Below, piece by piece: positions 2,227-39,714 of a stretch of 40,333 nucleotides of DNA. Position 1 is the stretch's first letter, and every line of letters starts with the position of its first letter. The position numbers were made by a program, and so were the translations under genes. This DNA is from Kiritimatiellota bacterium. Its GTDB lineage: Bacteria > Verrucomicrobiota > Lentisphaeria > Oligosphaerales > JAADHN01. The notes under the pieces were generated by a model. The model made no database searches. It was not told where the DNA came from and worked only from the letters and a program-made list of their open reading frames with translations. Location: positions 1-40,333 of the forward strand of contig JAADHN010000019.1 of assembly GCA_013151865.1 (NCBI GenBank), written 5' to 3'.

Positions 2227-2809
2227 AAGCGGCATGCCCGACGAGGAGATGTGGGCGAGTTTTTTCGATCCCCCCGCCATCCTTTCGGCACTCCAACTCA
2301 CGGCGACCTGTCGCGACATCGTCGAGTTCGGTTGCGGCTACGGCACCTTCACGATCCCTGCCGCGCGGATTGTCTCGGGCATGGTCCATGCCTTGGATGT
2401 CGAGCCGGAAATGGTCGCCGCTTCCCGGGCAAAGGCGCGTGCCGCGGGCCTGACCAACGTGAACACCCGCCGGCGGGATTTTGCGGATCGGGGAACCGGC
2501 CTGCCCGACAACAGTGTGGACTACGCCATGCTGTTCAACATCCTGCACGCCGCGCGGCCCGTCGCCCTTCTTCGTGAAGCGTACCGCGTCTTGATTCCGG
2601 GCGGCAAGGTCGGGATCATACACTGGAACTGCGACGCGGACACTCCCCGGGGGCCTCCCATGGATATCCGGCCGTCACCCGAGCTGTGCTGTGCCTGGGG
2701 CGAGGAAGCCGGTTTCGATGTGGTGGGGGCCGGGACGATCGACCTGCCGCCCTATCACTACGGCATCGTACTCCGACGCCCGATCCCGGTCCCGGAGAAC
2801 CGACCGTGA
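2213..2809 (+). CDS. Class I SAM-dependent methyltransferase
   Basis: A 198-residue cytoplasmic Rossmann-fold methyltransferase. Motif I is VEFGCGYGTFT (about 37-47), followed by an acidic strand end HALDVEP (SAM ribose), then YAMLFNILHA and RVLIPGGKVGIIHW, which are motif IV and post-motif elements of the UbiE-like Methyltransf_11 group. PSPELCCAWGEEAGF near the C-terminus is the usual last helix. The substrate is unknown. The ATG at 2213 has GGAGGG 6 bases upstream and lies inside the end of the nucleoside phosphorylase gene (14-base overlap), so the two proteins are co-translated. Three cysteines occur, but not in the ArsM arrangement, so arsenite methylation is not supported despite the ArsR neighbour. 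The stop is followed at 110 bases by a convergent gene. Confidence 0.88.
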   Translation: MKVRESGMPDEEMWASFFDPPAILSALQLTATCRDIVEFGCGYGTFTIPAARIVSGMVHALDVEPEMVAASRAKARAAGLTNVNTRRRDFADRGTGLPDNSVDYAMLFNILHAARPVALLREAYRVLIPGGKVGIIHWNCDADTPRGPPMDIRPSPELCCAWGEEAGFDVVGAGTIDLPPYHYGIVLRRPIPVPENRP

Positions 2810-2918
2810 GCGAGCCGGGCGGTCCCGGCGGCGTTCTCTGCGTTTCTTGTCTCTCCCGTCGCAGTTTGCCTGCGGAGCCCGACCGCCGGGGCCGAGGCGA
2901 GGGGCGAGAGCTTCCCGC

Positions 2919-5900
2919 TTATCGCGAAACGCGCGCGTTGGCCCACGTGCCGAGATCGTCGAAATTAGAATCCCCGGCGTCGTCCACTTTCAGGGCCAGG
3001 ATATGCACGCCGGATATATCCACGTCGATTGTGCGCGCACCGTCCTTTTCCCCCAGGACCGGGGACTGAAAGAGGATGCGGTCGTCCCCGAGCACGACGA
3101 ACCGGACGCTGCCGTGGGGCCAGCCGGACTTGCGTTTGGCAGGCGGGATGGGGTGTAGGCCGATCTCGGCCCGAAAGCGCCGATACGCACCGTCAATGAA
3201 GAACTCGAACCCGCCGGGAGCATGAACGCCGAGGCCCCTGGCGTAGGTCTTGTCGCCGATGCGGAGGGTCGGTTCGGCCTCCCAGCAACTTCGGTCCCAA
3301 CCGATCCTGCCCCAACCGGTGGTGGCGCGAATGCAGCGGGCCCGCAGGTCTGCAAGGTCCGCGTCTCCCGGCGGCAGCGGCGGGAAATGACCGGCAATCA
3401 CCGGCGCCAGAATGCGGCGGGTATGGCGCAATTCGGCCGGCGTGCGCGCCGGGAAAAGTCCTTCCGGCGCGGGGATTCCGGTGCTCCGGAAACGGCGCTT
3501 CATGTGTTGTTCGAGCCAAGCCTCGATGCGGACCGGGACCGGACAATCGATGTCCAGGCGCACGGTATGGTTGCCGGGCGGAAGCGACATCAGGCCCCAG
3601 GCATCCTGGGACTTCGGCCGCCCTCCCCGATCTCGGAAATGGACCGCCGCCGGGGCCGCTGCATCGTCGATGCGGCCGGCGGCCCGGACGGTCCGGGTCC
3701 CTGGGGGCAGGTCCAGACGCACCTGGAGTTCCGCCCGCGTGCCCGCCGGGATTTCCAGTCGACCATGAATGCCCGGTTTCCCGGGGGCGATGAGGCGAAG
3801 CCCGCCGCCGGGCGCAGGTATTTCGGGATCGGGGCCTGCGGCGGAGATTCGGTCGTTTTCTACGGTCCAGCGTCCGTCGGGAAGATTCGGCAGGACCCGC
3901 TGCGGACTCCGCACTTCGAACAGCGCCACGGCAAACCCCGGGAGGGGAATGCGCAGGGGTACACCGCCCCGAACGCCGGACCACGTATAGCGGAAGGGAT
4001 ACACCTGGGTGACCTGATACGGACCGGGGGCGTTCAGGTGAAAGTCGCCGGCAATGCTCAGGGAAAACGTCTGGGAACGAATGACGGGATTACGTAATCC
4101 CACCAGGGCGCGACCGTGCCCGTCTCCGTGTACGTAGCCGTACGGTTCCCGGCGCGCCGGGTCGCCGCCGATGAGCGCGAAATGGCGGTAAATCGGCGCG
4201 TTGGCGCGGACCCAGTTGCCGACGTTGCCGAGGAACCGCAGGCCGTTTCGGGTCCCGGCCAGCACGTGCAGGTCGCAACAGACGATGTAGGCGCTGATCG
4301 TGCCGCGAACAGCGAGGGCCATGACGTATTCGTCTTCCCAGCGCGCACCCATGGATTCGCCCCGGACCTGAATGCCGTCGATAAGGTGATCGGCCCGCAC
4401 CTGGTTGCCATAGAGGTCTTCAGCCCACAACGGAAACTGGCGACGGTGACGGCGGTGTTCGCTCCAGACCTGCATGTCCCGCACGGTAATCAATTCATCG
4501 CGGAGCCACGGGGAGGGGATGCCCGCGGCCACCGTATCTCCTGGCACGGTGTGCACCCCGTCCACGAATTGCAGCCACCACGGGCTGGCCCACTCGCCAC
4601 AGACGAACAGGTCCAGGCAGATGGTCGGCTTGAGTCTCCGCAGGCGGCGGAAGATGCGCAGTTCGCGCCGGACCACGGCGTCGGTGCCGTACACCCCTGC
4701 CTCGTCGCTCTCCCCCACCAAGTGGCCGTGCCCGGACTGATTGCAGCCGAAACCCTGGCCCCAGTGCATACCATCAAAATTGATGCTGTGCATATCATAG
4801 CGGGTGACGATCTTCACGAGGCGCTGTTCAATGGCCCGGGCGTACTTCTCCTGGGCGAGGCAGTAGGCATGGGGGTTCTGGAGCGCGAACCCCTGGGTCC
4901 TGCCCCAGGCCTGGGTGGGCGTGCAGTAGATGCAGGAGAAACTGGTCCAGAACCCAAGGTGCGTTCCGGTCCCTTCAAGCGCGGCCCGGCTCCGGGGCCA
5001 GAGGTCTTTTTCCCACGGCACGAACAGACCGTCAGGCCGGTACATCCGATTACCGGCGTCATAGGTCCAGGAATCGAAGGCGAACCCGGTCAACCTCTTC
5101 ATTTCCCGGGCGCGTTCGATCATCTTGAGCCCCTGGCCCAGACGATCAGGGGGCTTGATGACGCGGAACCCGTTCCAGTAGATGAACGGGCGCGGCGCGT
5201 TGGGGGAGAACGGCGAGAGGGTGGCGATGTATTCAAAGAACGCAGAAGCCACGGAGGCGTGGCTGCCGCCGCAACCCAGCACGCCGGGGTCGGAGGTCCA
5301 GGACGCTCCCGGGGCGATGGTGACACCGGGGTACTCCCGTAACTGCAGGGCGCCGTCGGGCCGGGTGGTCGAACGCGCGGCGGGGAATTCGACACCGAAA
5401 AAAAAGTCGGTGGTGTACACCGGCTGGCCCCAGTCCCCGAGGCGCGGAAACCGCGCGGAGACTGCGTACTCCGCGGGCTGCCGGGGGCGACAGGACTCGA
5501 TTTCGATCCAGCGTAGCAGCACCGGTACGGCGCCGGGCGGGCAGACCACGGTCAGGACCTTGCGCACCACCTTTACCGCCGGGTCCGGGATATAACGGAC
5601 ACGGACGTTCGGACCGGGACCGGTGCACAGGAACTCCCCTGCGCCGAGCGGACGCGCCCGGTAGGATTCACTCGAGACGATGGTGGGACGTTCACCGATG
5701 CAGAGCCGGAATTCCGGGCCTTCCACGGCCACCGGCGCTTTCTCGCCGGCCTGGAGAGACACGGTGCGGAGCACGCCTGCCTCGATGGCGACAGTGCGTT
5801 TCACAGGGCCGGCGGTGAATGTCCACGACCCGGGGGGAACCGGTCCCCCAGCCGCGGCAAACGCACCCGAAGCCACGAACAATGCAAGGGACAATTGCAT
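2919..5900 (-). CDS. Secreted glycosidase-like TIM-barrel protein with C-terminal NPCBM domain
   Basis: A 993-residue protein. The frame extends further upstream, but ATG at 5900 is preferred: it begins a signal peptide (MQLSLALFVASGAFAAAGG) and has AAAGG about 8 bases upstream. Residues 20-230 form a beta-rich N-terminal domain. A catalytic-type barrel like GH27/GH31/GH36 alpha-galactosidases follows at about 235-640. It includes YWNGFRVI, FAFDSWTYD (274-281), HLGFWTSFSC and SINFDGMHWG (372-381), where D376 is the likely nucleophile by analogy. A beta domain comes next. The C-terminal ~110 residues (RGLGVHAPGGFEFFIDGAYR onward) are an NPCBM/NEW2 carbohydrate-binding module. It probably acts outside the cytoplasm on a complex glycan; the family number is uncertain. 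It is divergent from the GH42-like gene, with 360 bases between them. Confidence 0.75.
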   Translation of the reverse strand: MQLSLALFVASGAFAAAGGPVPPGSWTFTAGPVKRTVAIEAGVLRTVSLQAGEKAPVAVEGPEFRLCIGERPTIVSSESYRARPLGAGEFLCTGPGPNVRVRYIPDPAVKVVRKVLTVVCPPGAVPVLLRWIEIESCRPRQPAEYAVSARFPRLGDWGQPVYTTDFFFGVEFPAARSTTRPDGALQLREYPGVTIAPGASWTSDPGVLGCGGSHASVASAFFEYIATLSPFSPNAPRPFIYWNGFRVIKPPDRLGQGLKMIERAREMKRLTGFAFDSWTYDAGNRMYRPDGLFVPWEKDLWPRSRAALEGTGTHLGFWTSFSCIYCTPTQAWGRTQGFALQNPHAYCLAQEKYARAIEQRLVKIVTRYDMHSINFDGMHWGQGFGCNQSGHGHLVGESDEAGVYGTDAVVRRELRIFRRLRRLKPTICLDLFVCGEWASPWWLQFVDGVHTVPGDTVAAGIPSPWLRDELITVRDMQVWSEHRRHRRQFPLWAEDLYGNQVRADHLIDGIQVRGESMGARWEDEYVMALAVRGTISAYIVCCDLHVLAGTRNGLRFLGNVGNWVRANAPIYRHFALIGGDPARREPYGYVHGDGHGRALVGLRNPVIRSQTFSLSIAGDFHLNAPGPYQVTQVYPFRYTWSGVRGGVPLRIPLPGFAVALFEVRSPQRVLPNLPDGRWTVENDRISAAGPDPEIPAPGGGLRLIAPGKPGIHGRLEIPAGTRAELQVRLDLPPGTRTVRAAGRIDDAAAPAAVHFRDRGGRPKSQDAWGLMSLPPGNHTVRLDIDCPVPVRIEAWLEQHMKRRFRSTGIPAPEGLFPARTPAELRHTRRILAPVIAGHFPPLPPGDADLADLRARCIRATTGWGRIGWDRSCWEAEPTLRIGDKTYARGLGVHAPGGFEFFIDGAYRRFRAEIGLHPIPPAKRKSGWPHGSVRFVVLGDDRILFQSPVLGEKDGARTIDVDISGVHILALKVDDAGDSNFDDLGTWANARVSR

Positions 5901-6038
5901 GACATGACCTTTCGTCGTATTCTTGTCGTCAGTGTTTTTTGGGAGGCTCCCGAGACCCGGCATGTACGGCCGCGGCCCAGGCAGATGTTTGGTCGGCCCC
6001 ATCTCGACATCACGACGGGAACGGGACCGCCGTGCTTT

Positions 6039-6068
6039 GCTGTTACCAGATAACGAGTAACTTACAGC
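6039..6068. promoter_or_regulatory. Inverted repeat in the divergent promoter region 5901-6260
   Basis: In the 360-base gap between two divergently transcribed secreted-enzyme genes, the only AT-rich patch carries GTTAC (6042-6046) and GTAAC (6057-6061) ten bases apart. They are flanked by GCTGT (6039-6043) and ACAGC (6064-6068), also complementary. This is a plausible operator for joint control of both genes. A weak plus-strand promoter could overlap it (TTGCTG at 6037-6042), but the -10 is poor. The rest of the gap shows no gene. Confidence 0.35.
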
Positions 6069-6260
6069 GCGCTTCGCGATTGTCCGGACGAACCTGGCGA
6101 GGCTCGGGAGGCTCTGCGCCCGGGGCGGACGGGCAGGCCTCTCGTCCATTCCTTGCCTCCCTGCCGAGGACCGAGTACTTTTGCCCGGAACGAGCGCACG
6201 TGCGACGCAGCTCGGCGCCGCCTGTCCGCTTGCCGCCCGAACCCAGGGGAAACGGCTGCC

Positions 6261-9080
6261 ATGAAATGGACCATGCCTGTCAAGCTTTTCGCTGCCCTAT
6301 GGGTCGGAGTGTCGCAACCGTCCCGTGCCGCAACGGTTGCCGCCAACCTCCTGGCCAATCCCGGATTTGAAAGCGACCCCCGGCAACCCGCCGGCTGGGT
6401 ATTCAAGGCCGAAGGCGGCGCGCAAGGCGCCGCCGCCGTTGTGGCCGCTCCGGTGCACGCCGGCGCGCACGCCTTCCGGGTGCAGAAGACCGGCGGCCGC
6501 GGTTTCTTCACATTGACCTTGCGAAGACGGGTGCCGGTGACGCCCGGACAGCAGTACGAGGCCCGGGCGCGCCTGCACGTAGCTGAGGCGTTCTTCGGCG
6601 CCAAGGCCTACCTGATGGTGCGTCAATTCCCGAAAGACGGCGTCAAGTACCTTCCCCCAAACATGTTCAGCCCAAACGATCAGCGCCCGGCCATTCGCTG
6701 TCGGCCGGGCGAATGGGTCCTTCGCTCCCAGATCTTCACCGCTCGCCCGCGGGCAACGACCGCGGATGTCACCCTGGTGGTTTCCGGCAATCCAAGTACT
6801 GTGGTCTGGGACGACCTTTACCTCGGCCCGCCCTTGCCCTGGCCGCGCAAAACACTGCCGCTGTCCCCCCCCGAATTGACGTCGGAAACCGAAGTGCTCG
6901 CCCGCTTGGCGGCACGGCCCGCCGCCGTCGCCGGACTCCGCACTGAAAGCGGCCGACCCGTACTGCGAATCAACGGCAAACCGGTTGCCCCGCTCTTCCA
7001 CCTCATGTGCTTCTGGCGACCGTTCACCAGTTACAACCGGGACTTTGCGCGGGCCGGGGTCCATGTGCACGTGTGTCCCATTCCCCTGGCGCCGTACACG
7101 AGAGACGGCACGCACTTGTGGAAAGGCCCCGGTCAATACGATTTCCGCCCGGCGGACGCCGTGCTCATGCACGCCCTGCGGGGCGACCCGGATGGGTATC
7201 TCGTTCCCGATCTCTGCCTCATCGGGGCTTGGCCGGGCTGGGGCGACGCCCATCCCGACGAGATCTGTCAGGACAGCCGCGGTCTGCGCGCTATCGGCAA
7301 GTTCGTGCACAATACCCGGTACGGCAAGAAGCTCAAAGACCCGATGGAATTCTGGTGCCCCTCGTATTATTCGACCGTGTATCGACGGGACGGCGCCGAG
7401 GTCGTCCGCGCCTACGTCGAACATCTCCGCACTACACCGTTCTTCAAAGCGGTCGTCGGGTTCAGCATCACGGGCGGCGACGATGGACAGTTCTCGCTCT
7501 GGCGCCGCTCGGGTCCGGCTCATGAGCCGGACTACAGTCCCGCGGCCCGTCACGCGTTCCGGGCCTGGCTGAAAGCGCGGTACGGCGCCGAGGACGCGCT
7601 CCGCCGCGCCTGGCGGCAGCCGACCGTCACTTTCGCGCAAGCACGCCTGCCGACACCCGAGGAACGCCGCGCTCCGGGACGGGTGTTCCGCGACCCGCTC
7701 CGGGACACGCCCGTCGTCGACTACGCAAGATTCCTCTCGGAAGGTACGTGCGACTTGGTCCGCGCTTTTGCGGGCGCGGCCAAAAAGGCCGCGGGCAAAC
7801 CGGTTTTCTGCACCACGTACTGGGGAGCGCATCTCATGGGCGCCTCGCTGAATCATGCCGCATCGCGTCGACTCATGCGAACCCCGGAGATCGACATTAT
7901 CCACGCCCCGGCAGGCTACGGTCCATGGCGCCGGCCCGGTATGCCCGGCGCCTGCAACACCACGCCCGGCTCGCTGCGCCTGCACAACAAGCTGTTCCTC
8001 CAGGAACTCGATCTGCGGACGTTCACCCGCTCCTGTCGCAGCGCGGCCTCGGCGTGGTTCCTGGCTCAGGCCCGCGACCTGGACGAGTTCAGGGCGATTC
8101 ACCGGCGCGAGACCGGCATGATGTACACCGCGGGAATGGGGGCCTGGTACTACGATATGGCCGGCGGCTGGTTTCACGATCCCGGCATCATGCGGGACAT
8201 CGCCGAAGTCCGCAACTGGTTTGCCCGCAGTCCGGACGGGCATGACGACCGCCACTCCGGCCTGGCTGTGATCGCCGACGAAGAAAGTACCCATTGGATC
8301 TGCGACAGCGCCCGCAGCATCCTTTACACCGCGCTTAGCCGCAACCGCGAGGCCTTGGCCTTGTCGGGTGTGCCGTACACCCTCTTCGAGTTGGGCGACC
8401 TCGAACGCCCCGAACTGCGACGGTTTCGTGTGATTCTCTTCTTGAACGCCTGGCGCCTGACCGACCGCCAATTGCGCTTCATCGAGTCCAACCTGAAACG
8501 GGACGGGCGCACCCTGGTCTGGATGTTCGCCCCCGGTTACATCGGCGACAACGGACTCTCGATCGAACAGACCCAGCGCCTGGTCGGTATGCGCCTGGAT
8601 CTCTCGCCGGCCCCCACTACACTCGAGTGCGAAGCCGTGCCGGGCGACCATCCTTTGACGCGCGGACTGCTCCCCCGGCAAGGGGTCAGCGCCCGGGCCT
8701 GTAAGTTTTGGATCACGGACCGGCGTGTCGTGCCCCTGGCCCGATACGCCGGCAGCGGCGAACTCGCCACAGCGGCCCGTGCCTTCGACCAGTGGCGCAG
8801 CGTTTACATCGCTTCGCCCGGCGGACTGGGCCCCGTGCTGCTGAATAACGTAGCGCGTTGGGCTGGGGCCTACGTCTGCACCACGCCCGGGGACGCCGTT
8901 TATCTCAGTGGCCGCCTGCTGTGCGTTCATGGGGTTCGGGGGGGACGCCGCACCTTCCGCCTGCCGCGTCGTGCGACGGTGATCGATCTGCCGGCCCAAA
9001 AGACGCTTGCCCGGGACACCGACCGCTTCGAGGCCGACATTCCCCTGCAAAAAACCCGCTGGTTCGAACTCCGGTGGTAA
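6261..9080 (+). CDS. Secreted GH42-like (clan GH-A) beta-galactosidase-family protein with N-terminal carbohydrate-binding domain
   Basis: A 939-residue protein. The ATG at 6261 is chosen over upstream in-frame codons because it starts a signal peptide (MKWTMPVKLFAALWVGVSQ, ending SRA-A) and has AGGGGA about 11 bases upstream. Residues 28-190 are a jelly-roll module of the type NLLANPGFESDP...VVWDDLYLG. Residues about 230-690 are a TIM barrel of the GH42-like type common in PVC bacteria. DYSPAARHAFRAWLKARYG (424-442) and LFLQELDLRTF (578-588, E582 the likely nucleophile) are visible. A Rossmann-like trimerisation-type domain and a small beta end domain follow. The acid/base position, normally a Glu in a G-x-T-G-E-W-type motif as I recall the family, reads GGDDGQF with Q410. 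The enzyme may therefore be inactive or changed in mechanism. The promoter region is shared with the divergent gene. Confidence 0.78.
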   Translation: MKWTMPVKLFAALWVGVSQPSRAATVAANLLANPGFESDPRQPAGWVFKAEGGAQGAAAVVAAPVHAGAHAFRVQKTGGRGFFTLTLRRRVPVTPGQQYEARARLHVAEAFFGAKAYLMVRQFPKDGVKYLPPNMFSPNDQRPAIRCRPGEWVLRSQIFTARPRATTADVTLVVSGNPSTVVWDDLYLGPPLPWPRKTLPLSPPELTSETEVLARLAARPAAVAGLRTESGRPVLRINGKPVAPLFHLMCFWRPFTSYNRDFARAGVHVHVCPIPLAPYTRDGTHLWKGPGQYDFRPADAVLMHALRGDPDGYLVPDLCLIGAWPGWGDAHPDEICQDSRGLRAIGKFVHNTRYGKKLKDPMEFWCPSYYSTVYRRDGAEVVRAYVEHLRTTPFFKAVVGFSITGGDDGQFSLWRRSGPAHEPDYSPAARHAFRAWLKARYGAEDALRRAWRQPTVTFAQARLPTPEERRAPGRVFRDPLRDTPVVDYARFLSEGTCDLVRAFAGAAKKAAGKPVFCTTYWGAHLMGASLNHAASRRLMRTPEIDIIHAPAGYGPWRRPGMPGACNTTPGSLRLHNKLFLQELDLRTFTRSCRSAASAWFLAQARDLDEFRAIHRRETGMMYTAGMGAWYYDMAGGWFHDPGIMRDIAEVRNWFARSPDGHDDRHSGLAVIADEESTHWICDSARSILYTALSRNREALALSGVPYTLFELGDLERPELRRFRVILFLNAWRLTDRQLRFIESNLKRDGRTLVWMFAPGYIGDNGLSIEQTQRLVGMRLDLSPAPTTLECEAVPGDHPLTRGLLPRQGVSARACKFWITDRRVVPLARYAGSGELATAARAFDQWRSVYIASPGGLGPVLLNNVARWAGAYVCTTPGDAVYLSGRLLCVHGVRGGRRTFRLPRRATVIDLPAQKTLARDTDRFEADIPLQKTRWFELRW

Positions 9081-22912: not shown

Positions 22913-23959
22913 TCAGATCACTTCCCGGTCGTTGCGGGCGGGCATGGGTGCGAAAGGAACGTGCGGCAGGGTCTGGTACCAGTAAACCACCGAGGCAAGA
23001 TCGTCCTGCAAGGGCAGGAACCGTCCTTCCCCTCGCCAGCCCAGGGCCTGCATGGTCACTTTCAGTTCCTGTTGGAAAAACACGGGGTCTTGCACGTGAA
23101 AGCGGTAGAGCGTCATCCGGCAACCGGGTTCCCCGGACTTGCCCGTGACCTGTTGGAAACCGAAGTACGGCGCCGAGTAGTTCTCGCCCCCGAACCCCCA
23201 GGCGCCGCCGAAGTAGTCTTCCGTACCGGTGCCGCAGATCGTGGGAAACTCGCCGTCGCCGTCCAGGAACATCTTGATTTCGCCTTCACCCCACCAGCCG
23301 GCGCTGTTCTGCTGCCAGCACATGAAAGTCCCCACGTATTGGCCGCGGCCGCGGACGCCGTCGATCATGAGGTATTCCTCGGCATACGGCGTCGGGTTGC
23401 TGCGCCGCCAGAAGGCGTGGAAATACAGGGCGTCCCCCGGCACTTCTTCGAGCGTATAGTTGATGGTGTAGAAAAAACCGCCCAGATCGGCAGGCGAATC
23501 GTTTTCGACCGTGATCCGGGCATGTTTGCGGAAGGGCATGGGAAAGAAGATGTTCATGCCTCCGGACGGATTGACGTTGATGGGCAGGGCCAGAATATTC
23601 TGGCGTTTCTTCCAGCCGTTGCACAAGAAGTCGCCGAGCGGCGCCTGGACTGACGGCGCCTCACTGCCGTCCCAGTAGATACGGATGATGACGTCCCGGT
23701 AGAATTCGGTCCGGAACGTAAACCACATGTGCCGGATTACGCCGGGGCCGTCCACGTCCATGATCGTGACGGTTTCGCCGGCCTTGAGCGTGATGCAGGG
23801 ACGAACCTTCCAACCGGTTCCCAGTTCCCGGGCCGGGCCCTCGCTTTTGGGGTCGACCGTGGCGCCCGCGCTGCGTTCTCCGTTCGGGTTTTCGGCGCTG
23901 ATGGAACGCGATTCGCAGTCCCGCATTCGATACACGTTACCGAGGTGAATGTCCTGCAT
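22913..23959 (-). CDS. GH172 (DUF2961) glycosidase family protein
   Basis: A 348-residue protein. ATG at 23959 (MQDIHLGNVY) is preferred over an ATG 19 codons upstream because AGGAGA stands about 8 bases before it and DUF2961 proteins begin about here. Hallmarks are VDGPGVIRHMWFTF (69-82), YWDGSEAPSVQAPLGDFLC (95-113), FYTINYTLEE (163-172) and the core GWWGEGEIKMFLDGDGEFP (221-239), followed by TICGTGTEDYFGGAWGF (240-256). E225/E227 and E247 are the candidates for the paired catalytic glutamates. Characterised GH172 enzymes act on alpha-D-fructofuranosides, difructose anhydride I and D-arabinofuranosides and work as oligomers of beta-jelly-roll domains. No signal peptide is seen, so it may act intracellularly on imported oligosaccharides. 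It is first in an operon with the Gfo/Idh/MocA gene. Confidence 0.88.
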   Translation of the reverse strand: MQDIHLGNVYRMRDCESRSISAENPNGERSAGATVDPKSEGPARELGTGWKVRPCITLKAGETVTIMDVDGPGVIRHMWFTFRTEFYRDVIIRIYWDGSEAPSVQAPLGDFLCNGWKKRQNILALPINVNPSGGMNIFFPMPFRKHARITVENDSPADLGGFFYTINYTLEEVPGDALYFHAFWRRSNPTPYAEEYLMIDGVRGRGQYVGTFMCWQQNSAGWWGEGEIKMFLDGDGEFPTICGTGTEDYFGGAWGFGGENYSAPYFGFQQVTGKSGEPGCRMTLYRFHVQDPVFFQQELKVTMQALGWRGEGRFLPLQDDLASVVYWYQTLPHVPFAPMPARNDREVI

Positions 23960-24247
23960 GGCCGGGATCTCCTGTCTTGCCAACCGTCTCGGGATTGTTC
24001 GGACGATTTCATGCAACGCGGGCCGCCCCAGGCGCCCAAGACCGGCGGGGGTTCACGGCGGGAACTGCCGACTCCGCGAACGCCCTTTTGCAACCCGCCG
24101 TCCGCGGCGGCAGATGTCGCGCCGATCGCGGGCAACGGAAAACGTACGGCTCCCGAGAACGTTTGCCCTCCAGCGTCGAGTTCGCGATTCGTGCGGCTGG
24201 CGGGCGAAATTCCCGCCGGGTCGAGCCGAGCGACGCACCCGGTTCAG

Positions 24248-30925: not shown

Positions 30926-31897
30926 TCAGGGCCCGAAAGCCTGTCGCACCACGTTCCTGACTTGCGCCTTCGCCACGGATGCGGCGCGAGGGTCGTGATT
31001 CCGACCTTGCCGAATCACGATGTATTTCTGCATTTCGTACAGCAGGTAGAACGCGTGGCGCACCCGGGCTTCGGGAGAGATGTCCCGCCGCCGGCCGTAT
31101 CCCTCCCAGAAGGCCGGGACAGAAACGCCGCAATAGTCCAGCACAGCGAATTCGATTTCAGGGTCGCCCCACAGCGCGCGGTCCCAATCGATCAACCCCA
31201 CGACACGCCCCGAGCCCTCGACAAGAATGTTTTGGTTCCATACATCCATATGCAGCAAAGCCGCCGGGACCGGGCGGTCGAACACGGACACGTGTCGCTC
31301 CAGCAGGTCGCGCATGGCCGCCTCTTCGGCCGTGTCGTACAAGCCCACGCGTGTGATATCCGCAACCAGTTTTCCCCACATGACCTTGAACGCCTCGGCC
31401 CAGCGGTCGCAAGGCGGCATGGGACGGTGCGCGCCCAGGTAACCGTAGTTGGGTGCTGCCAGGGCATGGACCTCGGCCAAGTATCGGCCGACCTGGCGGT
31501 ACACGCCGTCGACATCGACCCCGCGAAGTTCCGTCAGGGGCCGCCCCGGCAGACGTTCCATGATCAGGAAATCACGGTCCACAAACCGCCGGGAATCGTC
31601 GTACGCCAGGATGCGGGGGACCGGGACCGAAGTCTTCTCTCGGAGCAGACAGTGAAGCTCCGGTTCCTGGCGCATCATGTCCCGCTCGTAGAACACGAAC
31701 TCGGTATCGTCCGGCGGTGCGATCCGCAGCACCAGTTCGCGCCCGGTCCCGTCCCGAACGAACCAAGACGTGTTGAACTTGCCCGTGGGGACGCGACGGA
31801 ACTCGAGGGAGCCCCGCACCTCGGGCACGTTTTCTCGCACGGCGCGTTCAAGTCCCGCATGGGATGGACTTGCGCTCCACCGGGGCGTTTCTTGCAT
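30926..31897 (-). CDS. Aminoglycoside-phosphotransferase-fold small-molecule kinase
   Basis: A 323-residue cytoplasmic APH/choline-kinase-like protein. The N-lobe carries VPTGKFNTSWFVRD and ELVLRIAPP, where R58 occupies the usual lysine strand. FLIMERLPGRPL (110-121) is the hinge. The catalytic Brenner motif is LLHMDVWNQNILV (214-226) with D218 and N223, and GLIDWDRALWGDPE (234-247) gives the metal-binding D237. Such kinases phosphorylate sugars, amino alcohols, homoserine, fructosamines or antibiotics. Nothing here points to antibiotic resistance, and a metabolic kinase is more likely. The start ATG at 31897 has only a weak purine stretch upstream. It is divergent from the amidohydrolase gene across a 465-base gap that contains an unusual inverted-repeat element. 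Confidence 0.85.
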   Translation of the reverse strand: MQETPRWSASPSHAGLERAVRENVPEVRGSLEFRRVPTGKFNTSWFVRDGTGRELVLRIAPPDDTEFVFYERDMMRQEPELHCLLREKTSVPVPRILAYDDSRRFVDRDFLIMERLPGRPLTELRGVDVDGVYRQVGRYLAEVHALAAPNYGYLGAHRPMPPCDRWAEAFKVMWGKLVADITRVGLYDTAEEAAMRDLLERHVSVFDRPVPAALLHMDVWNQNILVEGSGRVVGLIDWDRALWGDPEIEFAVLDYCGVSVPAFWEGYGRRRDISPEARVRHAFYLLYEMQKYIVIRQGRNHDPRAASVAKAQVRNVVRQAFGP

Positions 31898-33877: not shown

Positions 33878-33933
33878 GCGGCGGGATTCAGGGGGACTGC
33901 TTCCGCTCCTGAATCGCCGCTCACTGCGGAAGC
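33878..33933. terminator. Two interlocked inverted repeats (H-type pseudoknot geometry) at the LanC-like gene end
   Basis: Stem 1 pairs 33878-33892 with 33908-33920: GCGGCG and ATTCAGG arms with a two-base bulge, 13 pairs. Stem 2 pairs GCTTCCGC (33899-33906) with GCGGAAGC (33926-33933), 8 perfect pairs. The left arm of stem 2 lies in the loop of stem 1, the topology of an H-type pseudoknot or of two exclusive hairpins. It overlaps the stop codon (33921-33923) of the minus-strand gene and lies between convergent genes, so a bidirectional end signal is the modest interpretation. The rest of 33689-33877 shows nothing. Confidence 0.45.
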
Positions 33934-35384
33934 GGGTGAAACTGGGCGAACTTGTAGCCGCCTCCCGCAGGTACGGCGCACTGAACGATATAGTCGGCCA
34001 CTTGCTTCGCAGCGCCGATCAATTCGTCGTTATCGAGATACTTGCCGGCAACGGCAAGCCCCAACACGATACCCGTTTGTCCGTAATCCAAGGCTAGATT
34101 GACTCGCTTGAAATGAGTGCGGTCGGGGCAGACGAGCGTCCCGTTGGTTCGGATCGCCGAGGCAATGACCAGCTTGCCGATTTTCTCGATAGAGATCCGG
34201 AGCCGCCTGGCGAACGCAGGTTCCTTCTTGCCAACGACCTTCGCGGTTTCGATCAGCAAGAACCCGCCCCCGCTCGCGCCGCCGCAGACGCCGAACCCGG
34301 CGTCCCCGCCCGGCGACCGGAGGCGCCGGGGCACTTTCGGCCCCGACAGCAAATTGACAGCATACACCGCGGCCCCCCGGGCGTATTTCAGACACTCGGT
34401 CGCGAATTCCGGATCAAACTCGCGATTCACTTGAAAACCGCGCAAGAACGCCCAACCGATTCCGGCCGTGCCGCTGCCGAAGCCGATGTTCTTGGAGGAC
34501 CGCGTGTGACGCATGTACGGCCACACATAGCCGCCGCGAGTCTGCCGCGCCGCACGCATCAAGTACCGCAAACTTCCATTCGCCAACGACCGGGGTGTTG
34601 TTCCGTCTTTCAGCTTGAGGTCGGGCCGGAGTTCGGCGAGTCGCAACAGCGGCAGGACTACACCCGCCTGGCCGTAACAGTAGCCGGTTTCGACGACATT
34701 CGGGTTCTTCAATGTCGGCCACGCGACCAGCGTCGCAGCACCCTGCTTTCTTAGCGTCGCACGCAAGCGCAGATTGATCAAAAGGCCTTCAAGTGCATTC
34801 TCCAACTCTGCCTTCAAAGCGTCGTCCGGCTTCGCCTCGTATCCGTCCAGCAGCGTATCAATCAGATTCCCCAGCCCATGAGAATGCCCGGCGAGCAGAC
34901 CGGGCGACCGGTCGTTCGGGCGGTACGAGTGCGACCAGGCATAGGAGACGCCGAGGCGGGTTCGGCGGGTGCGTGCGAAACGTTCCAGGAGCGTCCGTAC
35001 GGCCGTCAGACCGGTATCCCGGTATCGCCCGTCGCCGCAACGGCGATAACCGGCAAAGAACATCCGGATTACGTGACACATACTGGGAATGCCGATCCGG
35101 TGACTCGGGTGCCCCTTGGGGGCGGTCGTGGAAACATACCAGTAAAGGGCGCCCTGCCGGTCGTGTTGGGCCACGGAAATCAACCAATTCAAGGCCCCTT
35201 GCCAGTACTTGTCGTATTCCGGGGCCGCTTCCGACAATTCCAGGAAGGCCTGCACGACCCCTGAGGCGCCATGCGAGTCGGTCAAATATGCAGGACCCTT
35301 CTCCGGCTCGATCCCCCACGCCGAACTCAGTAGACCCGCAATGAGAATAACCGGAACCGCGGCGCCCCGCTTGAAGACTTGCAT
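33921..35384 (-). CDS. Secreted LanC-like (lanthionine-synthetase C-like) toroid protein
   Basis: A 487-residue protein. ATG at 35384 is chosen because it starts a signal peptide (MQVFKRGAAVPVILIAGLLS, then SAWG) and has AAAAGG 10 bases upstream; the frame extends 93 codons further without either. Six G-x-x-G repeats typical of the LanC alpha/alpha barrel are present: DSHGASG (36-42), HSHGLGN (167-173), GYCYGQAG (234-241), GFGSGTAG (301-308), GVCGGASG (365-372) and LDYGQTG (432-438). LanC zinc is bound by Cys, Cys and His; C236 and C367 match the cysteines, but the expected Cys-His reads C-G, so a complete zinc site is doubtful. It may instead be a glycan-processing toroid of similar shape. 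No lantibiotic precursor or LanB gene is visible. The next gene upstream on the strand ends 214 bases away. Confidence 0.7.
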   Translation of the reverse strand: MQVFKRGAAVPVILIAGLLSSAWGIEPEKGPAYLTDSHGASGVVQAFLELSEAAPEYDKYWQGALNWLISVAQHDRQGALYWYVSTTAPKGHPSHRIGIPSMCHVIRMFFAGYRRCGDGRYRDTGLTAVRTLLERFARTRRTRLGVSYAWSHSYRPNDRSPGLLAGHSHGLGNLIDTLLDGYEAKPDDALKAELENALEGLLINLRLRATLRKQGAATLVAWPTLKNPNVVETGYCYGQAGVVLPLLRLAELRPDLKLKDGTTPRSLANGSLRYLMRAARQTRGGYVWPYMRHTRSSKNIGFGSGTAGIGWAFLRGFQVNREFDPEFATECLKYARGAAVYAVNLLSGPKVPRRLRSPGGDAGFGVCGGASGGGFLLIETAKVVGKKEPAFARRLRISIEKIGKLVIASAIRTNGTLVCPDRTHFKRVNLALDYGQTGIVLGLAVAGKYLDNDELIGAAKQVADYIVQCAVPAGGGYKFAQFHPLPQ

Positions 35385-35598
35385 CGTTTTCTTGCCTTTT
35401 CCGAATTCCAAACCTGAAAGGCCTTGTTTGCGGCTCTCGCGACCGGTGAGGACTGGTCGGGCGGCGGCCCCGCAAGGCGGTGATTCCCGTTCTCCCGCCG
35501 TCACGTCCAAAGCGCATCCTCTCGGGAGTCGCCCCCCACTCCGAACCCGGTTGAAGACGTGAGTCCGCAACCGCGCAGCCGCGCGTCCACTGTCCTGC

Positions 35599-37623
35599 TC
35601 ACTGCGCCGTTGGTCTCGCCGCATGCGTGAGCCGTTGCAGGGCGGCATACACGACCGGAGCATCCGCGACCCCTCGGAAGTGAAAAGGAAACCTCTGGTT
35701 GACCTCCCATTGCATCAGGCCCCAAGACGTCTGGTGCGCCACGCAGGCTTCTGCGGCCCGGGCGCCTCGGGCGCCGACTTTGGCGTCTTCGTTGCAGACG
35801 ATGGGCTTGCCGTACGGCCGAAGGGCGGCAATCCGTTTGGGAATGGCGGCGATCCGGGTGTTGTTGAAATGAATGAGCAGGAAGTCGGACGCGCGCGCCA
35901 CCGCCTCGGGCAGCACGCCGCTGCCGCCGACGCTCGCCGAAACCAGAAGGTTCGGGGCGGCGCGTTTTGCCACTCGAATCAATTCTACCTGTCCTGCCGA
36001 GGTCTTCAGCAGTCGGTGGTCGAAACCGGCGTGCCCGAACTCGTTCGCGATTTCGAGGAGTACGTGGGTCCAACCGCCCTCCCTCAACCACGCAACCACG
36101 TGCTCGACGCCCGCCCGCACAGCCGCGCCGTCCCGCAATACCTGATCCTGCCGCTGGTAGTAACACCCGAGGATGACCGCCGCACCGTGTCGGTCGCACG
36201 CCTCGATGACGCGACGGACGCGGCGCATGTACCCCTGACGCAAAGAACCGTCCGGGTTGAACGCCGAACAGAGGGCCCCCTCGTACCCCGGCCAGCCGCC
36301 TTGCAGATTGATGGTGAACGCTCGGACCCCGTTCGCCACATATTCAGGGATTCGAGCGATGAATTCCGAGGTGTTCGCATCGGCGTCGAACCCGGGACGG
36401 TTCGCATCCTCGAACACTGCGTTCACCATGCGCACGTTCATCAGCAGGCCTTCCGCCGGAGTGCCGGGATAGGTGACGCGTCCGTTCAGCCGCCATCGGC
36501 GTCCGTCGATGGAAATGCGGGTGCGGGGGGTGCCCGTTGAAGACCAAGGCGCATCCCGGACCGCAGCCACGAGCTTCGTCAGCGCTCGGTTTTCCATGGC
36601 CGGGCCCTGGACAATGCTGTCGTTCCAACTGACGATCAGGTCGAAACTGGGGATGACGATCATGACGCGCCGGCCGCCGTGGCCCAACGCCCCGTATGTG
36701 TCGTACGGAGCGCCCGGCCAATGACGCTTCCCGGAGCGGTCGACCCCGTTCGTCCACCAGAGCCAACTGTAACTTCCAAAGTGATCGGTCTGATTGTCCG
36801 GGATGCGCCGACTGCCGATCGTCCGCTGCCCGGGGATCATTTCGGCCGGTTGCATCCCCGCGCGTGGAAGGGAGTTCGGCAAAGTGCTCGATACCGCCAT
36901 TCTTGCGTGCTGAATGCTGATGAGGCGCCGCCCCTTCCAAATCCCATTGCGCAGGTAGAGCAGTCCGAACCGCGCGAAATCCCGCGGGGAGATGCTCAGG
37001 CGGCCGGGCCGATCTTTGAGGCCGAACGCCAGGAAAGTGGGGTTGTCCTCGCATTGGATCGGGTCGGTGAGGAACGGGTGCAAGACTTCGGCGTCGACTC
37101 CTGCGAGATCGGCGCGGTAGACTTTCAGGAAGAGCGTGTCCCAAAACAGCGCCATCTGCCAGTCGTTGTAGCAGAAAGCCGAGCCGGGCTTCTCCGCAAC
37201 GCCGTAGCACGAGGTTTGATTCGCCAAGTGACGCCAAGTGATCAGACGGTCTTTGTGGTCCAGGCTCGCGTTGATCGCGGCAAGCCGCGGCTCATACTTC
37301 GCGACGCGCTCGTCGAGGCTGGCGATCCGTCCGTCTTCCAGTGCCTCGAACAGGAAATGTGCGTACACCGGTTTTGCCGCGGAGGCCACGTCCCCACGAC
37401 GCTTGTAGTCGCCCCAGGTATAAACCAGGCGTCCGTGCCGCACGATGCAACCCCGGCCGCGAACGTAGTCACTGAACGTTTTCAACCGTGCGGCGTCGAG
37501 GCCCGCCTCGGCCGGCTTCCGGGTCGCCCAGGTCTTGCCGGGCCAGACCGGCGCACCCAACGCCGCAGTGGCCAGAGGCATCGTCACGGCGAGCGTCAAC
37601 AGGGATGAACAACTCATCAACAT
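35599..37623 (-). CDS. Secreted fusion: serine beta-lactamase-fold hydrolase plus GH5-like glycosidase domain
   Basis: A 674-residue protein with a signal peptide (MLMSCSSLLTLAVTMPLATA) and GAGGTGA just before the ATG. Residues about 35-355 are a class C beta-lactamase/DD-peptidase-fold domain: S81-A-A-K84 (S-x-x-K nucleophile), Y152-N-D (Y-x-N position) and LGHGGRR with H315-G-G (K-T-G position). Such domains are often esterases or transesterases. Residues about 366-674 are a TIM barrel of clan GH-A, GH5-like type: RISIDGRRWRLNGRVTYPG, YVANGVRAFTINLQGGWPGY, VLLEIANEFGHAGF with acid/base E528, and KPIVCNEDAKVG with candidate nucleophile E612. Both active sites look intact. The fusion suggests coupled de-esterification and glycoside cleavage on one substrate, which is inference. 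Confidence 0.82.
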   Translation of the reverse strand: MLMSCSSLLTLAVTMPLATAALGAPVWPGKTWATRKPAEAGLDAARLKTFSDYVRGRGCIVRHGRLVYTWGDYKRRGDVASAAKPVYAHFLFEALEDGRIASLDERVAKYEPRLAAINASLDHKDRLITWRHLANQTSCYGVAEKPGSAFCYNDWQMALFWDTLFLKVYRADLAGVDAEVLHPFLTDPIQCEDNPTFLAFGLKDRPGRLSISPRDFARFGLLYLRNGIWKGRRLISIQHARMAVSSTLPNSLPRAGMQPAEMIPGQRTIGSRRIPDNQTDHFGSYSWLWWTNGVDRSGKRHWPGAPYDTYGALGHGGRRVMIVIPSFDLIVSWNDSIVQGPAMENRALTKLVAAVRDAPWSSTGTPRTRISIDGRRWRLNGRVTYPGTPAEGLLMNVRMVNAVFEDANRPGFDADANTSEFIARIPEYVANGVRAFTINLQGGWPGYEGALCSAFNPDGSLRQGYMRRVRRVIEACDRHGAAVILGCYYQRQDQVLRDGAAVRAGVEHVVAWLREGGWTHVLLEIANEFGHAGFDHRLLKTSAGQVELIRVAKRAAPNLLVSASVGGSGVLPEAVARASDFLLIHFNNTRIAAIPKRIAALRPYGKPIVCNEDAKVGARGARAAEACVAHQTSWGLMQWEVNQRFPFHFRGVADAPVVYAALQRLTHAARPTAQ

Positions 37624-37784: not shown

Positions 37785-39563
37785 CTACTGTTCCGGCAGG
37801 AGCCATCGATGCTGGCGAACAGCCTCTTCAAGGCTGGCGGCATGGACCGCCTGAACGTGTCCATCGGCGAACAAGAAGCACATCGTGCCGTCCGGATGAT
37901 TGCCAGGCTTGTCGTACATAATGACCGTCCGGCTCGGTTTGAGAATGTCTCGCTGCCTCAATCCGGCGGCAAGATAAACGTAATCGCTGTGCTCCGCCTC
38001 CGTCGCGGGATTCGGTCGGGCCGGGCATCCCCAGACAACGTCTGTTTTCAATGATTCCAAATAGGGTGCAATAAGCTTCAGATCAGGGGGGAACTGCCCG
38101 TCGAAATCGTTGGCATACATTATCAATCCCAGGCCGATCCGTTTCAGATTGCTCATGCACTTGCCCTGTGTGGCTTTAGTGCGTGCCTGCGCGAATGCCG
38201 GCACGGTGCCGGCCACGAGCATGGTGAGCGGGAAACCGATGAGCTGGGTCCCGGCCATTGTGCTGGCGCTCATTGTCGAATTGCCGATCGTGACTCTGCC
38301 GTCCGCCTCCATCTGCGTCACTTTGTACACGGCCAGTTTCTTTTTGCCCGCCATCGCGGCTTGCATGATCGTCATGGGCCCAAAAGCCCTTGCCGCGTTC
38401 TTGGGACCGGCCGTCATCCTGGCCTGCATCATCGCGGTGGTGATTCTGCTCCAGACTTCGATGAAAGTCGGGTCGAGGTACTGGAAGGCCACGCCCCGGA
38501 CCGGCACGTCGCGGCTGAGCTTCCGGAAGGCGTCGCTCTGCGTCAGGCCGGTCGTCGTGCCGGCGAGCACGCCCAGGGCATCGCGCACCAGGCGGTCGGT
38601 AGATGCAAGAAAGAAATAACCGTTGGCCTGTGCCACTGTGGGGCGCACCGTGATCGGCATGGGACTGTGCACCGGTATGGTGAGCATCTTCAGGGCGGCT
38701 TCGTCGACCCGCACCACTCTGGGGTTCGCGGCAAATGAGCGCTGCACGATTTGGTAGAGAGCGTCGTTCTTGACTTTCACCACAAGCATCACGGCCGGGT
38801 CCGGTACCTGGATGGGCCGCCCGGTCGCACTCGGAATGGCGGCGGACTTCTCCGGATCCAGGGTCACGACGACTCCCACCGGCCCCTCGAGTGAAGCCAG
38901 GAGGGCATCGAGGTCCGCACCCATCCCCGCGAGCATTTGCGGCAATCGGACCGTGCTCTGCTCTAGGTTGGGAAAGTCGGACCCGGCCGCCAAATCCTTC
39001 CACCAGCTCCAAGCCAGCTTGAAGTCAACCCGGAAAAAGCTCGCGACGACAGTCTGGCTGGGGAGAAGCTTCAATTCGTCCAGAGGGGCCGGTCCCCGTC
39101 CGAACATGCGCCATATTAATCCCTTGTTGTTCCCGGGGCGGTGATAAAGAATCGCACGCTGATGATAGAGGCCCGGCTCGCGAGCCACAGAGCTGAGGCC
39201 AAAGGCATCGACCTCGAGCAAACCCAGGTCCCGCACGATCCGGTCCGCCAGTCGAAAGCCGGCCTCGATCTTCTTCCGGGCCGCCGGGGCCCGGGCGGTA
39301 TCCAGGAACACCTTTTTCAGCCCCTCGCCCCGGTCGATCAGCATCTGCCCCCACTCGGTCGTGCTCATGTAGATATACGCGTCCCCGCCCTGATTCAAGT
39401 GCCGAACCACCTCCTGAAACGAGGTCTTTTCCCGAGGCTGAATCTCCGGTGCCTGACCCCAAACCCGTCCGGGCACAACGGTCAGGACAAAGGCGGTCCC
39501 AAAAACCGCAGCCCGGGATGCGAGCCGAGGTCGGAGCGAACGGAGGTGTGTTGCGATTCTCAT
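37785..39563 (-). CDS. Exported protein with DUF3352-like region and internal pseudopilin segment
   Basis: A 592-residue protein. ATG at 39563 is chosen because a signal sequence follows (RLASRAAVFGTAFVLTVVPG, ending WGQA) and AGGA lies 6 bases upstream. Residues about 45-430 are a mixed alpha/beta region (FQEVVRHLNQGGDAYIYMST, LLPSQTVVASFFRVDFKLAW, GVAFQYLDPTFIEVW) resembling DUF3352-type proteins of PVC bacteria. At 436-459 a hydrophobic helix (LIGFPLTMLVAGTVPAFAQ) is followed by ARTKATQGKCMSNLKRIGLG, the usual pseudopilin (DUF1559-like) entry. The end has FLFADGHVQAVH preceded by His at the H-X(9-10)-DG position. The pseudopilin module therefore sits in the middle of a larger chain rather than at an N-terminal cleavage site. 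Function is unknown; it is probably anchored in the inner membrane facing the periplasm. Confidence 0.75.
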   Translation of the reverse strand: MRIATHLRSLRPRLASRAAVFGTAFVLTVVPGRVWGQAPEIQPREKTSFQEVVRHLNQGGDAYIYMSTTEWGQMLIDRGEGLKKVFLDTARAPAARKKIEAGFRLADRIVRDLGLLEVDAFGLSSVAREPGLYHQRAILYHRPGNNKGLIWRMFGRGPAPLDELKLLPSQTVVASFFRVDFKLAWSWWKDLAAGSDFPNLEQSTVRLPQMLAGMGADLDALLASLEGPVGVVVTLDPEKSAAIPSATGRPIQVPDPAVMLVVKVKNDALYQIVQRSFAANPRVVRVDEAALKMLTIPVHSPMPITVRPTVAQANGYFFLASTDRLVRDALGVLAGTTTGLTQSDAFRKLSRDVPVRGVAFQYLDPTFIEVWSRITTAMMQARMTAGPKNAARAFGPMTIMQAAMAGKKKLAVYKVTQMEADGRVTIGNSTMSASTMAGTQLIGFPLTMLVAGTVPAFAQARTKATQGKCMSNLKRIGLGLIMYANDFDGQFPPDLKLIAPYLESLKTDVVWGCPARPNPATEAEHSDYVYLAAGLRQRDILKPSRTVIMYDKPGNHPDGTMCFLFADGHVQAVHAASLEEAVRQHRWLLPEQ

Positions 39564-39685
39564 GGGGTCCTGCCTCTCCTTTGCAGCCCGGGGGAGGGAG
39601 GCCCGGCGTGGCGTCGAGCCTCCTCTCGAAGAATGGGCCTTTCCACCCGTGTGTGCACCCGCTTTGTGCGAGGCCGCCGTTCGTG

Positions 39686-39714
39686 AATATAGATACATTC
39701 GAACTCGAACGCAA
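39686..39714 (-). promoter_or_regulatory. Candidate sigma-70-type promoter for the pseudopilin-containing gene
   Basis: On the minus strand TTGCGT (39709-39714) and TATATT (39686-39691, 5 of 6 matches) are separated by exactly 17 bases. They lie in the only AT-rich stretch upstream of the gene and imply a leader of about 115 bases. Confidence 0.5.

Follow-up and report, generated by a model that had tools for sequence, protein, structure and literature searches.

What kind of enzyme is encoded when a β-lactamase fold and a glycosidase barrel share one chain, and is such a chain a genuine protein? Both questions are raised by an ORF in a stretch of 40,333 nucleotides from a Kiritimatiellota bacterium (contig JAADHN010000019.1), which we call the window. 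An earlier note had read this ORF as a single secreted chain fusing a β-lactamase-fold hydrolase to a GH5-like glycosidase. We refer to the two parts as the BL half (β-lactamase-fold, esterase-like) and the GH half (clan GH-A barrel). The features are as follows.

35599–37623, minus strand: complete fusion ORF of 674 aa from an ATG; uninterrupted by stops, even third-position GC (GC3), architecture common to L026 and L027
37549–37623, minus strand: probable Sec signal peptide, residues ~1–25; hydrophobic stretch to near ALGA, read from the sequence
36544–37554, minus strand: BL domain, residues ~24–360; HMM built from relatives, 512 bits
36517–36543, minus strand: linker, residues ~361–369; low confidence at 361–363, variable among BL-GH relatives
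35623–36522, minus strand: GH domain, residues 368–667; HMM, 506 bits

The frameshift or assembly joint that could have undone the earlier reading was not found. GC3 lies between 0.73 and 0.84 in all 75-codon blocks of the ORF, and this evenness gives no compositional hint of a frameshift or joint. Furthermore, two whole-length relatives (L026 and L027, 54% and 53% identity) show the identical domain order across the junction. The intact ORF, the even GC3 and the L026/L027 architecture together rule out a frameshift or chimera. The full-length AlphaFold2 model (104 aligned sequences, mean pLDDT 92.5, pTM 0.74) comprises two well-defined domains whose relative orientation is uncertain, with low confidence at linker residues 361–363. 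A single chain with two confidently modelled domains is thus what this 674-aa ORF encodes. Residues 1–21 have a pLDDT below 50, and the N-terminus (residues ~1–25) is probably a Sec signal. Family profiles say little about the protein. The only Pfam match is PF00150 (Cellulase; 14.1 bits where the cut-off is 23.5, E 0.034), the NCBIfam scan gave no useful match, and a direct search of PDB sequences returned weak matches only, three of them S12-type (E 0.21–0.34).

Same-strand ORFs flank the fusion, one of them 161 bases upstream and the downstream one 214 bases away if started at its MQVFKRG methionine. Directly downstream lies a secreted-looking LanC-like protein (33921–35663, minus strand; PF05147, 8e-11). 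A 637-aa protein at 37785–39698 (minus strand) carries, late in the chain, a short DUF1559-type stretch whose match (SBP_bac_10, E 9.7e-05) is just below cut-off. Neither type of neighbour was found beside the fusion relatives, save for one weak DUF1559 match in L094. The window is rich in glycan-degrading genes: it holds a DUF2961/GH172-type protein (22916–24052, minus strand; PF11175, 3.9e-89) as well as GH42-like, CBM9, NPCBM, PcRGLX-like and SASA carbohydrate-esterase proteins. A Fructosamine-kinase/APH-like protein is encoded at 30926–31897 (minus strand; PF01636 1.2e-29, PF03881 5.4e-15).

Both halves keep the catalytic signatures claimed for them: all five motifs are in place, and the catalytic residues are invariant among the aligned relatives. 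In the BL half the motifs are S-A-A-K (81–84), Y-N-D (152–154) and H-G-G (315–317). To follow them we use an alignment of 65 BL domains plus the window protein (A1), drawn from 92 ORFs with BL matches and filtered at no less than 240 bits and 290 residues, which left out weaker or cut domains (e.g. L080, L091 and L098). S81, K84 and Y152 are identical in 66/66 rows. H315 (41/66), N153 (41/66) and D154 (45/66) are only partly kept, which identifies YND and HGG as traits of a subfamily; at position 154 the alignment has D in 45 rows, T in 15, N in 4 and S and A in one each, the window protein having Asp. The corresponding motif of S12 enzymes and family VIII esterases is Y-x-N, and the third motif of class C β-lactamases is K-T-G. 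In the window protein the Asn of Y-x-N is replaced by Asp, for which reason we claim the BL half as a fold relative of family VIII and not as a strict member. Its third motif is HGG, not KTG.

Among solved folds, those nearest to the BL half belong to esterases (EstG, family VIII carboxylesterase, EH7, Lsa45), not to β-lactamases. The A1 profile has 167 matches to PDB sequences at E ≤ 0.001, and the best 60 of these are esterases, DD-peptidases, amide hydrolases and β-lactamases, topped by Lsa45 (8dc1, 5e-36). Foldseek, run with the BL-half model, also places Lsa45 first (6.7e-14). Among the structures compared with VIA, the EstG structure 7u1c scores Z 28.0 (291 aligned residues, rmsd 2.8), the family VIII carboxylesterase 4ivi 27.9 and the macrolactin acyltransferase 6kjh 27.4, which is a tie; EstCE1 (7atl) scores 23.8. 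The three EstG structures (7u1b, 7u1c, 7uda) span Z 27.6–28.0 and are thus the closest fold jointly with others, at ~21% identity over 290–293 residues. PF00144, the Pfam β-lactamase profile, has no match to the window protein at E ≤ 1, and it matches seven of the eight BL-bearing relatives scanned (six above cut-off, L030 below; L032 unmatched). As to the chemistry, the esterase folds and HGG in place of KTG favour an esterase-type enzyme. Of the serine esterase or transesterase proposed earlier, ester chemistry is the best reading on the modelled fold, and the transesterase is kept only as a rather improbable rival.

The GH half carries N-E (527–528) and C-N-E-D (610–613). AlphaFold2 predicts it with high confidence (pLDDT 94.0, pTM 0.93) as a TIM barrel. 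In the numbering of this model, which becomes that of the window protein (N527, E528, E612) on adding 354, a strand at 167–172 is followed by N173-E174, and a strand at 254–258 ends at E258. E528, preceded by N527, thus sits where strand 4 ends and E612 where strand 7 ends, the arrangement that characterises clan GH-A. By analogy with this clan, E528 would be the acid/base and E612 the nucleophile. A second alignment (A2), of 47 GH domains plus the window protein, was drawn from 53 ORFs with GH matches at thresholds of at least 250 bits and at least 270 residues, leaving out for example L100, L103 and L104. N527, E528, N611, E612, D613, R398, H585 and N587 are invariant in its 48 rows.

Against PDB sequences the A2 profile finds only two weak glycosidase matches (E 0.041 and 0.26), so that in sequence the barrel stands apart. 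Foldseek gives GH5 mannanases as best (top E 2.5e-9). Of the structures compared with VIA, the top ones are nearly tied at 8–14% identity: the putative glycoside hydrolase 4n0r (BVU_0362; Z 24.1, rmsd 3.4, 284 aligned), the GH140 apiosidase 8t9w (23.9, 2.9, 268) and the GH5 mannanase 3wfl (23.1, 3.0, 262). These share the TIM barrel with the GH half, at Z 23–24, and differ from it by their low identity and by its score below the PF00150 cut-off. PF00150 also stays below 23.5 bits in relatives (L074 19.4, L065 17.7, L057 16.3). GH5 typically shows a His-x-Tyr signature near strand 6; the GH half has a possible counterpart in His585-Phe-Asn587, whose His and Asn do not vary across the 48 rows. 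Membership of GH5 was dropped for the sub-cut-off score of 14.1 bits. The resemblance in fold, which is how far the 'GH5-like' of the earlier note holds, stands (Z 23.1 to 3wfl), and 'clan GH-A', with no family assigned, is the better name. Passing no Pfam cut-off and having a confident structural model, the barrel is a candidate new GH family.

How general is the fusion? A contig search gave 113 matched stretches, including 103 relatives, the best 80 of which were used as loci. With the profiles built here, 27 of these 80 carry BL and GH in one ORF, so the absence from relatives that would have counted against the fusion is not what is observed. Both orders occur: BL comes first in eight (L026, L027, L029, L038, L046, L062, L085, L103), GH in 18, and L057 is mixed. 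Among the fused loci, the contig ends within L080, and an extra partial GH is present in L086 and L098. In L069 the two domains are adjacent separate genes.

The picture depends on which half leads to the locus. All but one of the ten loci matched by both halves are fused, the other being the neighbouring genes of L069. The GH half alone led to 36 loci, 17 of them fused to BL, with BL nearby in L068 and L104. The aligned BL domains of the GH-BL type are only ~22–26% identical to that of the window, so these loci were not found through the window BL half. By contrast, one of the 34 loci found by the BL half alone is fused to GH (L057) and 13 to another domain, X, which suggests a partner other than GH as the usual one for this BL subfamily.

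In a sample drawn evenly from the phylum, 16 of 387 genomes have a GH-profile match at E ≤ 1e-20; BL lies on that ORF or locus in one of them, the genome of the window, each locus there covering only 2.5–3.9 kb. Fourteen of the other 15 GH loci form a more distant branch (143–305 bits against 440–530 for the close branch). The remaining one, L109, belongs to the close branch (472 bits) and has M23 peptidase and PKD domains instead of BL. A comparison with 98 relatives, one of them the own genome, gave matches at E ≤ 0.001 in 18, and the own genome alone has one that spans both halves. The fusion is confirmed as real, conserved and recurrent. It is a trait that belongs to the close GH branch, occurs here and there in several phyla and does not extend to the phylum as a whole. 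A search by title and abstract, covering open-licence papers, found no report on this exact fusion.

Recurrence could reflect one old fusion or several. BL domains joined to GH form several separate clusters in the BL tree. A 65-row tree, prepared by dropping 19 long or distant rows of an earlier 84, rejects a single origin for 26 of them (p-AU 8.2e-13) and shows at least six changes of GH joining. The two domain orders likewise speak for more than one fusion event. The closest relatives of the window BL domain, at up to 69% identity, are lone BL domains and those of BL-X proteins, not those of L026 and L027. On a 42-row BL tree the test leaves standing a common origin for the BL domains of the window protein, L026 and L027 (p-AU 0.056) and rejects the wider set that adds L095 and L057 (p-AU 5.4e-6). 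Resolution near the window is poor (14 of 39 inner branches open on the 42-row BL tree, 25 of 47 on the glycosidase tree), so the change counts of the first trees (BL 9, GH 13) are not to be leaned on.

The partners of the BL domain in relatives bear on its likely substrate. The genome of the window holds a paralogue (L002, on C37; 1447–3612, plus strand), a 722-aa protein that combines BL with a DUF4185-like domain (23.4 bits, with the fused proteins at 23.4–25, below the cut-off of 39.5). The same pairing occurs in L020, L053, L075 and L085. L085 has the order BL-DUF4185-GH, and L074 combines DUF4185 with GH in that order. Sde182-like domains accompany BL and/or GH in L029, L057, L070, L100 and L104, and in L032 BL is followed by DUF5060. 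BL-X loci number 13, one of them cut. Profile searches found no solved relative of the X family. One protein, L075:5313–6860, scores above the PF13204 cut-off and also reaches 52 bits with the X profile, and X may be apiosidase-like by this transitive link only.

Longer chains also exist. M23 peptidase and PKD domains occur on the L029 and L109 chains, and the first of these (2715–8825, plus strand, 2037 aa) runs M23, PKD, PKD, BL, GH, Sde182-like, Sde0182_C and BL. L057 (6861–12422, plus strand, 1854 aa) is composed of a partial GH, BL, an Sde182-like domain, a glucuronyl-esterase-like stretch and GH. That stretch, α/β esterase-like, scores below cut-off; given its presence, BL may not necessarily be the esterase in L057. 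A separate case is L088 (354–2165, plus strand), where GH is joined to a metallo-β-lactamase-superfamily domain (PF13483, 4.4e-13). This fold is unrelated to BL and shares the name only.

Several known systems offer comparisons. One study reports a cyclic hexamer of glucose as the EstG substrate in Caulobacter and counts EstG, along with BglX, among OPG metabolic enzymes (PMC11389396). The solved EstG chain has no glycosidase domain, unlike the window fusion, and the Caulobacter substrate need not apply here. Family VIII carboxylesterases (4ivi, EH7 7pp3, EstB 1ci8) and Lsa45 (8dc1) resemble the BL half in the fold, S-x-x-K, the invariant Tyr and a G-G-type third motif, and differ in that the window protein has YND for Y-x-N, carries a glycosidase and is unmatched by PF00144. 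RmNag3 of Rhodothermus marinus, a GH3 N-acetylglucosaminidase with a signal peptide and a C-terminal β-lactamase domain (PMC6987092), likewise places a glycosidase and a β-lactamase-type domain on one chain. In contrast to the window fusion it is of family GH3, not clan GH-A, and its glycosidase comes first. A chain of glycosidase plus β-lactamase domain is therefore already published, and the clan GH-A version described here would be a further form of it. Lastly, DUF4185 and DUF2961 correspond to GH183 and GH172, families that degrade D-arabinan (PMC10115798). The GH183-like domain is joined to BL in L002 and in relatives, not in the window fusion, and the GH172-type protein of the window is a separate protein. 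Reading the substrate of the fusion from these families would be guesswork.

We read the fusion, with confidence only just above even, as a secreted bifunctional carbohydrate-active enzyme that combines removal of a glycan ester with cleavage of the glycan on one chain. S81, K84 and Y152 would form an acyl-enzyme as in family VIII esterases, and the BL half would take off an ester substituent (acetyl or other acyl) from a glycan. The clan GH-A barrel would then cut a glycosidic bond of the same glycan by a retaining mechanism with two glutamates (E528, E612), the fusion placing deacylation and cleavage on a single chain. Here we infer all four elements, namely secretion, ester chemistry, the retaining mechanism and the coupling of the two steps. 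The proposal builds on the esterase folds, HGG instead of KTG, the invariant catalytic sets and the glycan-degrading partners. In its favour are the recurrent pairing of BL and GH in both orders, the joining of BL to X, DUF4185-like and Sde182-like domains, the other glycan-related genes of the window and the EstG parallel; against it stand the sub-cut-off PF00150 score, the unmatched PF00144, the Asp in Y-x-N, the single fusion among 387 genomes of the even sample, the rarity of GH among loci reached by the BL half alone, the esterase-like stretch of L057 and flanking genes that relatives do not share.

The earlier note had left the target as an acylated polysaccharide or peptidoglycan. Partners that appear apiosidase-like, DUF4185-like and Sde182-like tilt the balance towards a decorated poly- or oligosaccharide, and the M23 domain on L029 and L109 keeps peptidoglycan alive as a target. 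Were the protein a cell-wall enzyme, the BL half would act as a DD-peptidase or amidase on peptide stems while the barrel cut the glycan strand. The M23 peptidase sharing the chain in those two loci is the best evidence for this, and the RmNag3 authors tie their GH3 enzyme with its β-lactamase domain to peptidoglycan turnover (PMC6987092). However, the BL half has esterases as its nearest folds, the barrel has mannanases, the GH140 apiosidase and other polysaccharide enzymes, and the remaining partner domains, too, are of a polysaccharide kind. Moreover, clan GH-A is not known to include a peptidoglycan-cleaving family, and we consider a cell-wall role unlikely, if still deserving some weight.

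Ester chemistry could also run towards transfer, with BL as an acyltransferase or transesterase that moves a group and so tailors the product of the glycosidase. Close folds include the macrolactin acyltransferase 6kjh (Z 27.4) and EstCE1 (7atl, Z 23.8), a hydrolase with promiscuous acyltransferase activity; yet 6kjh lies within 1 Z of EstG and 4ivi and not above plain esterases, and outside the cell water would be the commonest acceptor, which makes transfer rather improbable. We give similarly low credence to the idea that the halves are functionally unrelated and merely share a chain, or that BL is a binding or scaffolding module. It would suit the promiscuity of BL, which stands alone or beside X, DUF4185, Sde182 and GH domains in widely varying order, but a mere scaffold would hardly need S81, K84 and Y152 in 66 of 66 rows, and the partners that can be named are mostly of glycan type. 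Antibiotic protection by a secreted serine β-lactamase can draw on the fold and the SxxK motif; with HGG for KTG, YND for YxN, esterases as nearest folds and repeated joining to glycosidases, we regard it as very improbable indeed.

Beyond this single protein, the deacylate-and-cut reading suggests a broader proposal, which we advance tentatively and with less than even confidence. The BL domain would represent an unrecognised class of carbohydrate esterase, an EstG-like cassette repeatedly joined to different glycosidase types (the clan GH-A family, apiosidase-like, DUF4185/GH183-like and Sde182-like) across phyla that include Planctomycetota, Verrucomicrobiota and Armatimonadota; the barrel would be the founder of a new GH family. 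If true, it would imply a widespread, not yet recognised acylated glycan as substrate. Annotation readily casts proteins with a β-lactamase fold as potential resistance or cell-wall enzymes; their repeated joining to glycosidases, with the catalytic residues kept, points instead to a role in dismantling decorated glycans.
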